Positions 10,344-54,946 of a DNA stretch of 54,949 bases are shown one piece after another. The notes beneath the pieces are model-generated. The model worked only from the letters and a program-made list of their open reading frames with translations. It searched no databases and had not been told where the DNA came from. The DNA is taken from positions 1 to 54,949 of the forward strand of contig CAIOAK010000118.1 of the NCBI GenBank assembly GCA_903855945.1, written 5' to 3'. Positions within the stretch are counted from its first letter, which is position 1, and every line of letters starts with the position of its first letter. A program made the translations under genes and the position numbers. This DNA is from an uncultured Anaeromyxobacter sp. GTDB taxonomy: Bacteria > Myxococcota > Myxococcia > Myxococcales > Anaeromyxobacteraceae.

Positions 10344-11273
10344 TCAAGCCCGGGGGTGGTGCCGGGCGTGGAGGCGGCGCGCCTGGGTGCGGTCCACGTG
10401 GGTGTAGCTCCCGGTGGTCGTGACGTCGGCGTGGCCGAGCATCGACTGCACGGCGCGGAGGTCGGCACCCCCCTCCAGGAGGTGGGTGGCGAAGCTGTGG
10501 CGGAGCTTGTGGGGGGAGATGGCCCGGGCGATCCCCGCGGCCCGGGCGTAGCGGCCGAGCAGCTTCCAGAACCCCTGGCGGGTCATGCGTCGCCCGCGGG
10601 GCGTCACGAAGAGGTCCCGGCTGCGCCGTCCGTGGAGCATCCGGTCGCGGGGGGACCCGAGCCAGGTCCGGATCGTCTCGGCCGCCGGAGCCCCCACCGG
10701 CACGAGCCGCTCCTTGTTCCCCTTTCCGCGGGCGAGCAGGACGCGGGACTCGAGATCGACCTGGTTCACCTCGAGCGTGACCAGCTCCGATACCCGGAGG
10801 CCGGTCGCGTAGAGGAGCTCCAGCATGGCCCGATCGCGGATGGCCGCGAGCCCCTTCCCCTTGCGGGGGGCCGCGAGGAGCCGATCCACCTCGTCCCGCG
10901 TGAGGAGCGACGGAAGCTTTCGGGCGCGCCGGGGCGCATCGACCTCGTCGGTCGGGTCGGCCCGGGCGATCCGCTCCGAGACGAGCAGACGGTGAAATCC
11001 CCGGATGGCCGAGAGCGCCCGGGCCTGGCTTCGAGCCGAGATCCCATCCCCGGTGAGGGCTGCGAGGTGGGCCTGGACGTCGGGGCGCCCGACCGCGTCC
11101 CAGTCCCCCTTCCCCGAGTCGGCGAGGAACAGGAGGTATCGACGGACGTCCCGGGCGTAGGACTCGACCGAGTTGGCCGAGAGCCCCTTCTCCACGCGGA
11201 GGTGGGCGAGGAAGAGGTCGAGCGCCGGTGCGAGCGGTCCGACCGGGACCGGCGCGGCCTCGCGGCGGGCCAT
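10344..11273 (-). CDS. xerD: XerC/XerD-type site-specific tyrosine recombinase
   Basis: This 309-residue tyrosine recombinase has an N-terminal SAM-like core-binding domain (LAPALDLFLAHLRVEKGLSA) and a catalytic domain. Catalytic residues are visible: Arg in LLYATGLRVSELVTL, Lys in GKGNKERLVPVG, H-x-x-R in ISPHKLRHSFATHLL, His in MLGHADVTTTGSYTHV, and the nucleophilic Tyr in the same segment. The family resolves chromosome dimers at dif during division. XerD fits better than XerC by overall pattern, but the two are hard to separate by eye. The start codon shares one base with the tsaC stop, so it is coupled to tsaC. No integron or phage context is present. Confidence 0.9.
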   Translation of the reverse strand: MARREAAPVPVGPLAPALDLFLAHLRVEKGLSANSVESYARDVRRYLLFLADSGKGDWDAVGRPDVQAHLAALTGDGISARSQARALSAIRGFHRLLVSERIARADPTDEVDAPRRARKLPSLLTRDEVDRLLAAPRKGKGLAAIRDRAMLELLYATGLRVSELVTLEVNQVDLESRVLLARGKGNKERLVPVGAPAAETIRTWLGSPRDRMLHGRRSRDLFVTPRGRRMTRQGFWKLLGRYARAAGIARAISPHKLRHSFATHLLEGGADLRAVQSMLGHADVTTTGSYTHVDRTQARRLHARHHPRA

Positions 11274-50764: not shown

Positions 50765-51733
50765 TCAGCCCTCCGCCGCGTGAGGGGCGCAGCCCGTCTC
50801 CGGCGAGTGTCCGTGGTGGTGGACGTCGTCGTAGAGATGGGCGTACCGGGCCGACTCGATCTGGATGGTGCTGTGCTGGATGCCGAACCGCTTCCGGAGC
50901 CGCCCCTTCACGTCGTCGAGGATGGCGTCGTTCCGCCCCATGTCCCCCTCCCCGACCACGAGGTGAGCCGACAGGGCGTGATGCCCGCTGGAGATGGTCC
51001 AGACGTGCAGGTCGTGGACGGCGAGGACCCCGGCGACCCCCCCCATGGTTCCGCAGACCTCCTCGATGGCGAGGTGGCGGGGGACCGCCTCCATGAGGAT
51101 GTCGGCGATCTCGAGGGAGAGGCGCAGCGCGCCCCACAGGATGAGGAGCGAGATGGCGAGCGAAAGGATGGGGTCTATCCAGGTCCAGGTGGGCTCGAAC
51201 CACATGGCCGCGGCTCCGGCCAGGACCACCACCGACGACACCGCATCGCCGAGGACGTGGAGGAAGGCCGAGCGGGCGTTCAGGCTCTCGTCGGCGTGGA
51301 GCCAGCGGAGCACCACCAGGTTGGCCACGAGTCCGATGGCAGCCACTCCGGCCATGACAGGGAGCGCGATGTGCCCGCTGGGGTGACGGAGCCGATCGAC
51401 GGCCTCCCAGATGATCCAGGCGGTGAGCACGACCAGAGCCGCCACGTTGGCCTGGGCGGCCAGCACCTCGGCGCGCCGGAACCCGAAGGTCCGCTTCTCG
51501 TCGGCGGGGCGGGAGGCGAAGCGCACCGCGATGAGCGCGAGCGCCAGGGCCGCCACGTCGGTGAGCATGTGACCGGCGTCGGAGACGAGCGCGAGCGAGC
51601 CGGAGACGAATCCGCCCACCGCCTCGGCCACCATGATCCCGGCCGTGACCACGAGCGACAGGCCGAGGTTCCGGGCGCTCCTCGCGGTCGAGGCCCCGTG
51701 CGCCCCTGCGGCGTGGTCGTGATCGTGTGCCAT
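50765..51733 (-). CDS. cation diffusion facilitator (CzcD-like) metal exporter
   Basis: This 322-residue CDF transporter exports divalent metals (Zn/Cd/Co) by proton antiport. His-rich ends (MAHDHDHAAGAHG and DDVHHHGHSPETG) flank six membrane helices. Transport-site motifs are LALVSDAGHMLTDVAALALA (D and H-x3-D) and AFLHVLGDAVSSVVVLAGAA. The cytoplasmic domain has VHDLHVWTISSGHHALSAHL. The ATG has AAGGA close upstream, and a divergent promoter pair sits in the 52-base gap to the peptidase-barrel gene. Confidence 0.94.
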   Translation of the reverse strand: MAHDHDHAAGAHGASTARSARNLGLSLVVTAGIMVAEAVGGFVSGSLALVSDAGHMLTDVAALALALIAVRFASRPADEKRTFGFRRAEVLAAQANVAALVVLTAWIIWEAVDRLRHPSGHIALPVMAGVAAIGLVANLVVLRWLHADESLNARSAFLHVLGDAVSSVVVLAGAAAMWFEPTWTWIDPILSLAISLLILWGALRLSLEIADILMEAVPRHLAIEEVCGTMGGVAGVLAVHDLHVWTISSGHHALSAHLVVGEGDMGRNDAILDDVKGRLRKRFGIQHSTIQIESARYAHLYDDVHHHGHSPETGCAPHAAEG

Positions 51734-51738
51734 GGTCC

Positions 51739-51768
51739 TTGGCGCAGTCTAATCCACTCGACTAGCAT
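51739..51768 (+). promoter_or_regulatory. promoter of peptidase-barrel gene
   Basis: TTGGCG (51739-51744), 18-base spacer, TAGCAT (51763-51768); GTG start at 51786 without a Shine-Dalgarno. It overlaps the divergent CDF promoter. Confidence 0.45.
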
Positions 51769-51774
51769 CGGCAC
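51746..51774 (-). promoter_or_regulatory. promoter of CDF transporter gene
   Basis: On the minus strand GTGCCG (51774-51769), 17-base spacer, TAGACT (51751-51746), 12 bases before the ATG. The overlap with the plus-strand promoter means the two genes cannot easily be initiated at once. Confidence 0.4.
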
Positions 51775-51785
51775 CCGGCCACGCG

Positions 51786-54700
51786 GTGACGCTCCTCCGA
51801 AAGACCTTCGCGCTCCTGGTCGCGATCCTCCCCGCACTGGCCACGGCACAGTACGACCCGTCCCTTCGCTGGCGAACGATCGAGACGCCCCACTTCCGGG
51901 TGCACTACTACGAGGGGGAGGAGTCGCTCGCCCAGCGCACCGCCGGCGCCCTCGAGCGGGCCCGCGAACTCCTCACCCCCTGGTTCCCTGCGCTGCCCAC
52001 GGGGAAGACCGAGGTGGTCCTCGCCGACGACACGGACGAGGCGAACGGGGTCGCCACGGTCTTCCCGTACGACGCCATCCACCTCGTCGCCACGCCCCCC
52101 GATTCCCTCTCGGAGCTCAACGACTACGCCGACTGGCTCTTCTCGCTCGTGGCCCACGAGTACGTGCACGTCATCCACATGAACGTGCGCGGCGGGGTCC
52201 CCGCCGTCATCGACGACATCGTCGGGAAGGTTCTCCTCCCGAACGCCATGGTTCCGCCCTGGCTCACCGAGGGCATGGCCGTTCTCCACGAATCGGGTCA
52301 GGGGCACGGGCGAAACTCGAGCGCCCTCTTCGACATGTACGCCCGCGCGATGGTTCTCCAGGGCGGCCTCTATCCCCTGCCGGAGGTCTCGAACCAGCCG
52401 CTCGACTGGCCGCTCGGGAACATGTGGTACCTGCTCGGCGGACGCTTCCTCTCCTTCCTGCAGGAGCGGACGGGGGACGAGGGGCTCTCCCGCTTCATGG
52501 CCGCCCAGGGTCGATACGTCTGGCCCTTCGCGATCGGTGTCGTGGCCGAGGACACCCTCGGTGGACAGGACTTCCGGAAGCTCTGGGGGGAGTTCGGCGA
52601 GGCCCTGCGCCTCCGCTACGAGGCGCAGCTGGCGGAGGTCCGGCAGGGACCCGTGACCTCCCCGGACTGGATCACCCGGAGGGGAGCCCGGGTGCTCCAC
52701 CCCCGCTGGTCCCCCGACGGGCGCTTCGTCGCCTACTGGGACCGGGGGCTCGACGGACTGCAGGGGATCCGTCGCGCCACCCCGGCGGGCGAGGACCTCG
52801 GCCTCGCAGCGGAGATCCCGGCCAACGGCACCTTCGCGCTCCTGTCCCCCACCGAGGCCGTGGTCGCGGTGGAGGACTACTACCGGTACTACTGGCTCTG
52901 GAGCGACCTCTGGCGGGTGGACCTCGACTCGGGCCGACGAATCCGGATGACGGTCGGCGAGCGGGCCACCGACCCCGACGTCCTTCCCAGCGGTGCCTTC
53001 GTGGCCTACGTGGCTCGCATCGCCCCGGGCGAGATGGCGCTGAAGCGTCTCTGGCTCGACGGCGGGACGACCGAGACCCTCTTCCACCTCCCGGGCGCCC
53101 AGATCTACCTGCCGCGCATCTCTCCCGATGGGCTTCGCATCGCCTTCGAGCTCCAGGAGGGAGCGCGCCGGGACATCGCGGTCTGGCAGGATGGCCGGGT
53201 CGCTCGGGTGACGAACGACGACGCGCTCGACACGAGCCCGGAGTGGTTGCCGGACGGGCGGCTGCTCTTCTCCTCCGACCGGACCGGGATCTACGACATC
53301 TACCGGTTCGAGCCCGGCGCCGGGGGATGGCGAGGGACCGTTCCGGCGCCCTCGGCCGCGCTCCTCCCTCCCGGCGATGCGCTCCTGTCGCTCGTTCCCC
53401 CGGTGAAGGCGCCCGACGGTGGGCCGCCTTCGTCCCCGCCCGCCGGTCGTCCGGGGGCGCCCACCCTGGTCATCCCCGGCGAGGTCCGGCGTGTCACTCG
53501 CAGTGAAATGGGAGCGATGCAGCCCGCCGTCTCCCCCGATGGTCGGCAGGTGGCCTACGTCTCCTATTCCCGGGCCGGCTACGACCTCGCCCGGCTCGAG
53601 CTGCCGGCCGATCCCCTCCCCCCGGCCCCGGCGTCCGCGCCCCGCCCCGGCGCCATCCCCTACGACGCCTCTCCGGGGATCCCCTCGGAGCCGTACGATC
53701 CGCTGCCGATGCTCGTGCCCCGCTACTGGCTCCCGGTCTTCGGCTGGGATGCGGCGGGATTCACGCTGGGGGCCCTGTCCTCGGCCTCCGACGTGGTCGG
53801 CCTCCACTCCTGGGCCGCGGAGCTCCGATGGAGCTTCGGGTCGTCGAGCCCGGTGTACGACGCCGCCTACGTGGGGGAGTGGATCCGGACGCCGCTGCTG
53901 CTCGGCTCCGGCCGCTGGATCGGCTGGGCGCCCGGCGTGGACGGCGTGCGCGAGGAGGTCTGGACTCCGCTCCGCGCCTCGCTGCTCGTCCCCATCCGGG
54001 AGCTCTACCACCACCTCTCGGCCTCGGTGGGCTGGAGCGGAACCTTCTACCGGGTCCTCTCGCCACCCCCCGGACCCCTGCCGCTGCGGGACGGGTTCCG
54101 GAGCATGGTGGCGGGGAGCCTGGCCTACGACGACACCCGGCAGTACGTGAACAGCATCTCTCGCGTGTCGGGCTTCCAGGCCGGCGTCGCCGCCGGGGTC
54201 ACGTCTCCGGTCCTCGGCAGCGACTACGACTACGCCTGGGGAGAGGCGACCTGGAACGGCTACCTCCGCTTCTCCGAGCGGAGCCAGTGGGTGCTGGCGC
54301 TCCACCTCGCGGCCGGTGTCTCCGACGGTACGTTCGGTGGCCAGTACCCCTTCACCCTGGGCGGAATCCCCTCCCCGGACGTGGCCTCCCTCCTGCTCTC
54401 CGCGCTCGGATTTGCCTCCACGGGCTCCCAGCCCAACCAGCTGCGCGGATACGCCTCGGGGATCTTCCAGGGGAGCAACCTCCTCTCCGGCACCTTCGAG
54501 CTCCGGTTCCCCATCGCCGCGCCCCAGTGGGGCTGGTCCACCTGGCCGATCTTCCTCCGGCGCATCTCCGGAGCGGTCTTCCTCGACGCGGGCAACGCGT
54601 GGGTCCCCACCGCGGGCATCCCGTGGTACGACCGGGTCCGCTTCGGGACCGGGGCCGAGGTGGACCTCGAGATCGTCCTGGGCTTCTACCTTCCCGTCCT

Positions 54701-54809
54701 GCTGCGGGTCGGCTTCGGACAGGGGCTCGGGCCGCTCCTCGCGCCGGGCCACCCCGCCGATCCCTACGCCGGTACGCAAGTCTACGTGACCCTCGGGGAG
54801 TCGTTCTGA
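51786..54809 (+). CDS. HExxH peptidase / TolB-like propeller / outer-membrane barrel protein
   Basis: This 1007-residue exported protein has a signal peptide (LRKTFALLVAILPALATA). A gluzincin-like domain (about 24-290) has zinc motif SLVAHEYVHVIH (His124, Glu125, His128) and a third-ligand candidate Glu162 in PPWLTEGMAVLHES, as in Peptidase MA-type families. TolB-like propeller repeats (about 300-620) include HPRWSPDGRFVAYW, RISPDGLRIAFEL, EWLPDGRLLFSSDRTGIYDI and AVSPDGRQVAYVSYS. A C-terminal beta-barrel (about 660-1007) ends in YVTLGESF, with terminal Phe as in Omp85/BamA-type proteins. It should be an outer-membrane protease or assembly factor. The GTG is chosen because the signal peptide starts there. 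Confidence 0.87.
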   Translation: MTLLRKTFALLVAILPALATAQYDPSLRWRTIETPHFRVHYYEGEESLAQRTAGALERARELLTPWFPALPTGKTEVVLADDTDEANGVATVFPYDAIHLVATPPDSLSELNDYADWLFSLVAHEYVHVIHMNVRGGVPAVIDDIVGKVLLPNAMVPPWLTEGMAVLHESGQGHGRNSSALFDMYARAMVLQGGLYPLPEVSNQPLDWPLGNMWYLLGGRFLSFLQERTGDEGLSRFMAAQGRYVWPFAIGVVAEDTLGGQDFRKLWGEFGEALRLRYEAQLAEVRQGPVTSPDWITRRGARVLHPRWSPDGRFVAYWDRGLDGLQGIRRATPAGEDLGLAAEIPANGTFALLSPTEAVVAVEDYYRYYWLWSDLWRVDLDSGRRIRMTVGERATDPDVLPSGAFVAYVARIAPGEMALKRLWLDGGTTETLFHLPGAQIYLPRISPDGLRIAFELQEGARRDIAVWQDGRVARVTNDDALDTSPEWLPDGRLLFSSDRTGIYDIYRFEPGAGGWRGTVPAPSAALLPPGDALLSLVPPVKAPDGGPPSSPPAGRPGAPTLVIPGEVRRVTRSEMGAMQPAVSPDGRQVAYVSYSRAGYDLARLELPADPLPPAPASAPRPGAIPYDASPGIPSEPYDPLPMLVPRYWLPVFGWDAAGFTLGALSSASDVVGLHSWAAELRWSFGSSSPVYDAAYVGEWIRTPLLLGSGRWIGWAPGVDGVREEVWTPLRASLLVPIRELYHHLSASVGWSGTFYRVLSPPPGPLPLRDGFRSMVAGSLAYDDTRQYVNSISRVSGFQAGVAAGVTSPVLGSDYDYAWGEATWNGYLRFSERSQWVLALHLAAGVSDGTFGGQYPFTLGGIPSPDVASLLLSALGFASTGSQPNQLRGYASGIFQGSNLLSGTFELRFPIAAPQWGWSTWPIFLRRISGAVFLDAGNAWVPTAGIPWYDRVRFGTGAEVDLEIVLGFYLPVLLRVGFGQGLGPLLAPGHPADPYAGTQVYVTLGESF

Positions 54810-54822
54810 GGCGCGCCAGCGC

Positions 54823-54851
54823 TTGCGGGGGCGCTCCGGCGATGCTAGAAC
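54823..54851 (+). promoter_or_regulatory. tRNA-Thr promoter
   Basis: TTGCGG (54823-54828), 17-base spacer, extended -10 TGCTAGAAC (TAGAAC at 54846-54851), about 19 bases before the mature tRNA 5' end. Confidence 0.55.
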
Positions 54852-54870
54852 GCGCTGCATTTCCCGCCTT

Positions 54871-54946
<76 letters not shown>

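Follow-up and report, generated by a model that had tools for sequence, protein, structure and literature searches.

We analysed a 54,949-nucleotide stretch of DNA (contig CAIOAK010000118.1, forward strand; hereafter the window) from an uncultured Anaeromyxobacter sp., in which one gene encodes a protein of 1007 amino acids. An initial annotation, made from the sequence alone, had described the product as a single-chain outer-membrane protease combining a catalytic domain, a protein-binding scaffold and a membrane anchor. In this study, we confirmed that a peptidase-propeller-barrel protein is encoded at this locus. Three parts follow the signal peptide (residues 22-290, about 295-615 and about 640-1007), and the single-chain combination is well supported as anatomy by the zinc site, PD40 and PF01103. 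The predicted features are as follows.

51786..54809, + strand: whole gene of the peptidase-propeller-Omp85 protein (1007 aa); single open frame without internal stop, GTG start
51786..51848, + strand: Sec-type signal peptide, residues 1-21 (ALATA before Q22), upstream of 51849; judged by eye
51849..52655, + strand: gluzincin-type zinc peptidase domain, residues 22-290; HExxH-x33-E kept in 64/64 members, Peptidase_MA_2 matches in relatives
52155..52169, + strand: HEYVH zinc-binding motif, residues 124-128; from sequence and alignment
52269..52271, + strand: E162 in WLTEG, third zinc ligand; 64/64
52428..52430, + strand: Y215, aligned with the Tyr of the PYxKG motif in aminopeptidase 3cia; 63/64, hmmsearch alignment
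52668..53630, + strand: TolB-like (PD40) propeller, residues ~295-615; Pfam PD40 and TolB structure matches, probably six blades
53703..54806, + strand: Omp85-superfamily beta-barrel, residues ~640-1007; PF01103 and profile matches
54441..54452, + strand: LRGY, Omp85 loop-6 motif, residues 886-889; RG in 62/62
54585..54587, + strand: D934 in FLDAGNAW, conserved acidic barrel-wall position; D in 54, E in 4 and other residues in 4 of 62

The exact start codon is provisional, the GTG at 51786 being the putative start. An antisense open frame of 1038 codons (51762-54878, - strand) spans the entire gene and was taken as a high-GC shadow frame.

Domain architecture of the protein

The window protein was aligned with 63 relatives; two came from metagenome-assembled genomes of uncultured Anaeromyxobacter, and the other 61 from loci in genomes of the same phylum. 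H124, E125, H128, E162, E169 and R176 were invariant in 64/64 aligned members, and the spacing of 33 residues between H128 and E162 was likewise kept in all of them. The motif H124-E125-H128 with E162 as a candidate ligand, proposed in the initial annotation, is thus conserved without exception. Invariance is limited to 12 of the 267 columns in the peptidase domain. These include all four zinc-site residues, an outcome with a probability of about 2e-6 if invariant columns were placed at random. The mean pairwise identity of the domain among 62 members was 38%, with a minimum of about 16%. A chance occurrence of HExxH was ruled out by this conservation across the 64 members.

The combination of HExxH and a downstream Glu, by which gluzincins of clan MA(E) are recognised, was found in 64/64 members. 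When 57 members were scanned, Peptidase_MA_2 (PF13485) was matched by 21 at E≤0.1 (best 4.7e-9), the window protein not being among them, and M61, M1, M48 or M9 was matched weakly by a few. A conserved YLxGGRF segment containing Y215 aligned onto the PYxKG segment of 3cia, which we take to be an M1 enzyme. In leukotriene A4 hydrolase and other M1 enzymes, the Tyr of PYxKG has a catalytic role. Judged from the aligned residues, the domain appears to be a divergent gluzincin carrying everything that catalysis is predicted to need.

For the second part, PD40 was the Pfam match (E 4.2e-19, four stretches), and the best structure matches by sequence were TolB, down to E 1e-10. By eye, six blade-like segments were counted; a PDG motif is present in four, in agreement with the earlier count of at least four SPDG-type blades. 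A Pro-rich variable insert lies at about residues 513-560, between the fifth and sixth blades; the motif at residue 543 falls inside this insert and is not a blade. Assignment to the TolB equivalog TIGR02800 was rejected, as the protein scored 85.3 bits against a cut-off of 343.15.

The third part of the window protein matched PF01103 at residues 775-961 (E 4.2e-9, above the cut-off), as did 39/54 members at E≤0.001. A barrel ending in Phe had been claimed before; the PF01103 match and the C-terminal Phe agree with this, and the Omp85 identity is added here. The barrel profile matched 9ccg (1.8e-6) and chains of BamA and TamA. R887-G888 was present in 62/62 members that reach this point, with L/I/V before RG in 61/62 and Y/F after it in 61/62; we take the Omp85 loop-6 motif to be (V/I/L)RG(F/Y). 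D934 aligned with the FADAG of 9ccg, and Asp or Glu occupied this position in 58/62 members, the exceptions (L034-L037) all belonging to a divergent branch described below. The incomplete sequences L019 and L026 were excluded from the barrel counts and from the tree. From residue 625 onwards, an alignment-based strand scan gave 17 alternating-pattern peaks, including peaks that overlap or fall outside the barrel. No POTRA domain was detected in the whole protein at E≤1 or in residues 1-305 at E≤10. The PF01103, profile and loop-6 results indicate that the predicted barrel is of the Omp85-superfamily type. The same genome contains two other Omp85 genes at G000:C213:3407-3925 and 10497-11045, separated by a few kb, and gave seven PF01103 matches in all.

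Distribution and gene neighbourhood

Some match to the protein at E≤1e-6 was found in 47/58 genomes of the phylum sample. The distribution across Myxococcota, which the initial annotation had suggested checking, extended to 33/58 genomes when a match at E≤1e-40 starting in the N-terminal domain was counted by hand from the match rows. Two members are named as Anaeromyxobacteraceae, phylum Myxococcota. The weaker matches include a divergent branch, consisting of family f4 and second copies in genomes G024 and G025, in which the zinc site is kept. Among five members of this branch tested, the peptidase and propeller were recovered at E≤1e-18 in 5/5 and the barrel at E≤1e-7 in four, with L102 borderline (E 0.011); the best E among 100 shuffled control sequences was 58. 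Loss of the barrel or degeneration of the zinc site in homologues would speak against a single-chain protease, and both were examined: the zinc site was intact in 64/64 members and the barrel RG in 62/62, and the claim stands. By these sequence comparisons, the predicted three-part design was shown to be retained jointly across Myxococcota.

In a tree of 62 members, most families formed single clades, such as the window's family (18 rows, support 100). The exceptions were f11 and f22, which were split, and f2 and f3, which were split by their second copies. The tree fits vertical descent for the most part, together with one or more old duplications. A scan of genome contigs returned two close relatives only, and a plasmid search returned two records, both matching the propeller part alone.

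Neighbouring genes were counted at the 59 loci that have 1.5 kb or more of flank, four of the 63 being omitted for short flanks. One neighbour in the window is divergent:

50765..51733, - strand: CDF cation (zinc-type) exporter; Pfam Cation_efflux 4.5e-43, ZT_dimer 1.5e-14

The divergent exporter was kept in 23/59 relatives, including families f1, f6, f7 and f22, and RsmD and CoaD genes lie beyond it in many of them. The exporter might be a functional partner that feeds zinc to the periplasm; this is a lead only, because much of the linkage can be put down to gene order shared by close relatives. A tRNA-Thr gene follows the gene in the window and likewise in L021, L022 and L038, among 12 loci scanned. 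Downstream of or near the gene, L033:5914-8958 encodes a membrane protein that is related to TLC ATP/ADP transporters and carries HEAT repeats at its C-terminus, and similar TLC-HEAT genes occur in L030, L031, L032, L064 and L065, that is, in several families.

An alpha/beta hydrolase gene lies immediately upstream on the same strand (gap ≤900 nt) in 29/59 loci, and further away in two more. The carriers include L038, L094, L095, L096, L023, L033, L032 and L030, the last with an Abhydrolase_1 match of 1.1e-23. On the tree, presence of the hydrolase required 7 changes, compared with about 20 when it was shuffled, a pattern that stems partly from relatedness. The hydrolase was not found upstream in the window, L021 or L022, and the window's genome gave no ortholog-level match to it, only distant hydrolases (best 34% identity). 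Since these three form one clade nested within carriers, Anaeromyxobacter probably lost the upstream hydrolase.

Proposed function and alternatives

We consider it probable, from sequence, that the protein is a periplasm-facing zinc protease that is anchored by an Omp85 barrel and attacks envelope proteins on the inner side of the outer membrane. The N-terminal domains of Omp85 proteins reside in the periplasm. In the proposed mechanism, the signal peptide would direct the protein to the periplasm and the barrel would insert in the outer membrane, with the N-terminal part remaining periplasmic as in other Omp85 proteins. The zinc peptidase and the TolB-like propeller would replace the usual periplasmic POTRA domains. 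The propeller may dock a partner or substrate, and the catalytically complete peptidase would cut, on that inner side, proteins of the outer membrane or surface that have stalled or remain unprocessed, while being tethered to, and perhaps aided by, the barrel. By analogy with PlpD and BepA, the protein would be a periplasm-facing tethered peptidase with a docking propeller. Processing or assembly of surface proteins, as first suggested in the initial annotation, is the functional class that we consider likeliest, and the finding of an Omp85 barrel adds weight to this proposal.

Several findings weigh against this proposal. Even at E 10, none of the Pfam peptidase families was matched by the peptidase domain of the window protein, and the peptidase assignment therefore rests on relatives. 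The top solved structure for a profile of 57 members was 3cia, a weak match (E 0.0028). Predicted structure models, computed with the window protein and its close relatives L021 and L022 as input rows, were poor, with mean predicted local distance difference test (pLDDT) scores of 32.1 and 41.3. It is not apparent how the conserved upstream alpha/beta hydrolase would relate to proteolysis, and this neighbour is absent from that position in the window's genus.

Other functions were also considered. It is possible, though we would not favour it, that the barrel is a mere anchor, in which case the protein would be a maturation protease trimming particular surface proteins or lipoproteins without involvement of the Omp85 lateral gate. 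The failure to find a POTRA domain is consistent with this. However, among the members aligned here, the strict RG of loop 6 (62/62) and the mostly kept acidic wall residue (58/62) may point to selection on more than a generic anchor. A structural zinc site on a scaffold, in a helper of outer-membrane protein assembly resembling BamA fused to BamB/TolB and devoid of proteolysis, seems unlikely. A 2014 survey likens WD40-Omp85 proteins to a BamA-BamB fusion (PMC4104836), which would fit such a helper. The conservation nevertheless goes beyond the three ligands to the general base E125 (64/64) and the candidate transition-state Tyr (63/64), and the invariance of E125 argues against a scaffold because a purely structural site would not need it.

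Many myxobacteria are predators, and this counts towards a role outside the cell, in which the barrel would export the N-terminal part to act on prey or competitors. The same survey left room, in principle, for Omp85 enzyme fusions to work in this way (PMC4104836). We regard it as very improbable, since the enzyme domain of PlpD, as described for that protein, stays periplasmic (PMC11116518), and the peptidase together with a folded propeller, about 590 residues, would need to pass through the barrel. The neighbourhood in the window's family is also housekeeping-like; the neighbours are ordinary (exporter, rsmD, coaD, tRNA-Thr) and the protein is kept in many families, so that the prey or competitor role raised in the initial annotation is left unsupported.

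Beyond the tethered zinc protease itself, we suggest tentatively, as an idea that may well be wrong, that this phylum-wide Omp85 branch is a one-chain device for assembly and proofreading. The protein would then have a functional barrel gate, take up clients at its propeller and clear stalled ones with its zinc protease, merging the roles of BamA, BamB/TolB and BepA. If the proposed function is true, a whole phylum would have proteolysis integrated in an Omp85 scaffold; in this phylum, the cell surface plays a central part in gliding, predation and fruiting.

Comparison with known systems

The window protein differs from BamA and TamA in that no POTRA domain was found. Its propeller belongs to the same repeat family as that of TolB, but it scored far below the TolB cut-off and is fused to a peptidase and a barrel. 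PF00149, which we take to be a phosphoesterase and not a protease family, was not among the matches of the window protein at E≤1, and membership in the 'Metallo' Omp85 subfamily was rejected. In that subfamily, a metal-dependent enzyme domain is also N-terminal to an Omp85 barrel, but the subfamily is founded on PF00149 (PMC4104836), Pfam name Metallophos. For this reason, the published 'metalloprotease' label of the subfamily looks mistaken.

PlpD is an Omp85 enzyme fusion in which, as in the architecture proposed here, a hydrolase domain precedes the barrel and the enzyme domain is described as periplasmic (PMC11116518). It differs in carrying a lipase rather than a zinc peptidase, in having one POTRA domain and in having no propeller. 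BepA is described as a periplasmic zinc peptidase that acts on a client at BAM (PMC8423444), and it thus resembles the proposed protease in working at an Omp85 barrel. In contrast to the window protein, which is fused to its barrel and appears to belong to another gluzincin family, BepA is a separate protein of the M48 family.

Among published kinds, the WD40-Omp85 subfamily comes closest; this non-POTRA architecture was named in 2014 (Heinz & Lithgow, PMC4104836). The window protein has both of its defining parts, an N-terminal TolB-like WD40/PD40 propeller and an Omp85 barrel. In the main-text description, on which this comparison is based, the propeller is the only N-terminal domain named and the word 'peptidase' occurs 0 times (PMC4104836). 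Apart from BamA, TamA and Lipo, the subfamilies are stated there to be conserved no further than the genus level (PMC4104836), whereas the protein described here is spread phylum-wide. No description of the three-part protein was found in the open-licence literature, although one may still exist. The strictly conserved catalytic centre provides a concrete active site that can be mutated, so that function becomes testable. As far as the published main text allows comparison, the protein is a variant, or an unnoticed part, of the named but functionally uncharacterised WD40-Omp85 subfamily, and our claim of novelty is limited to that extent.
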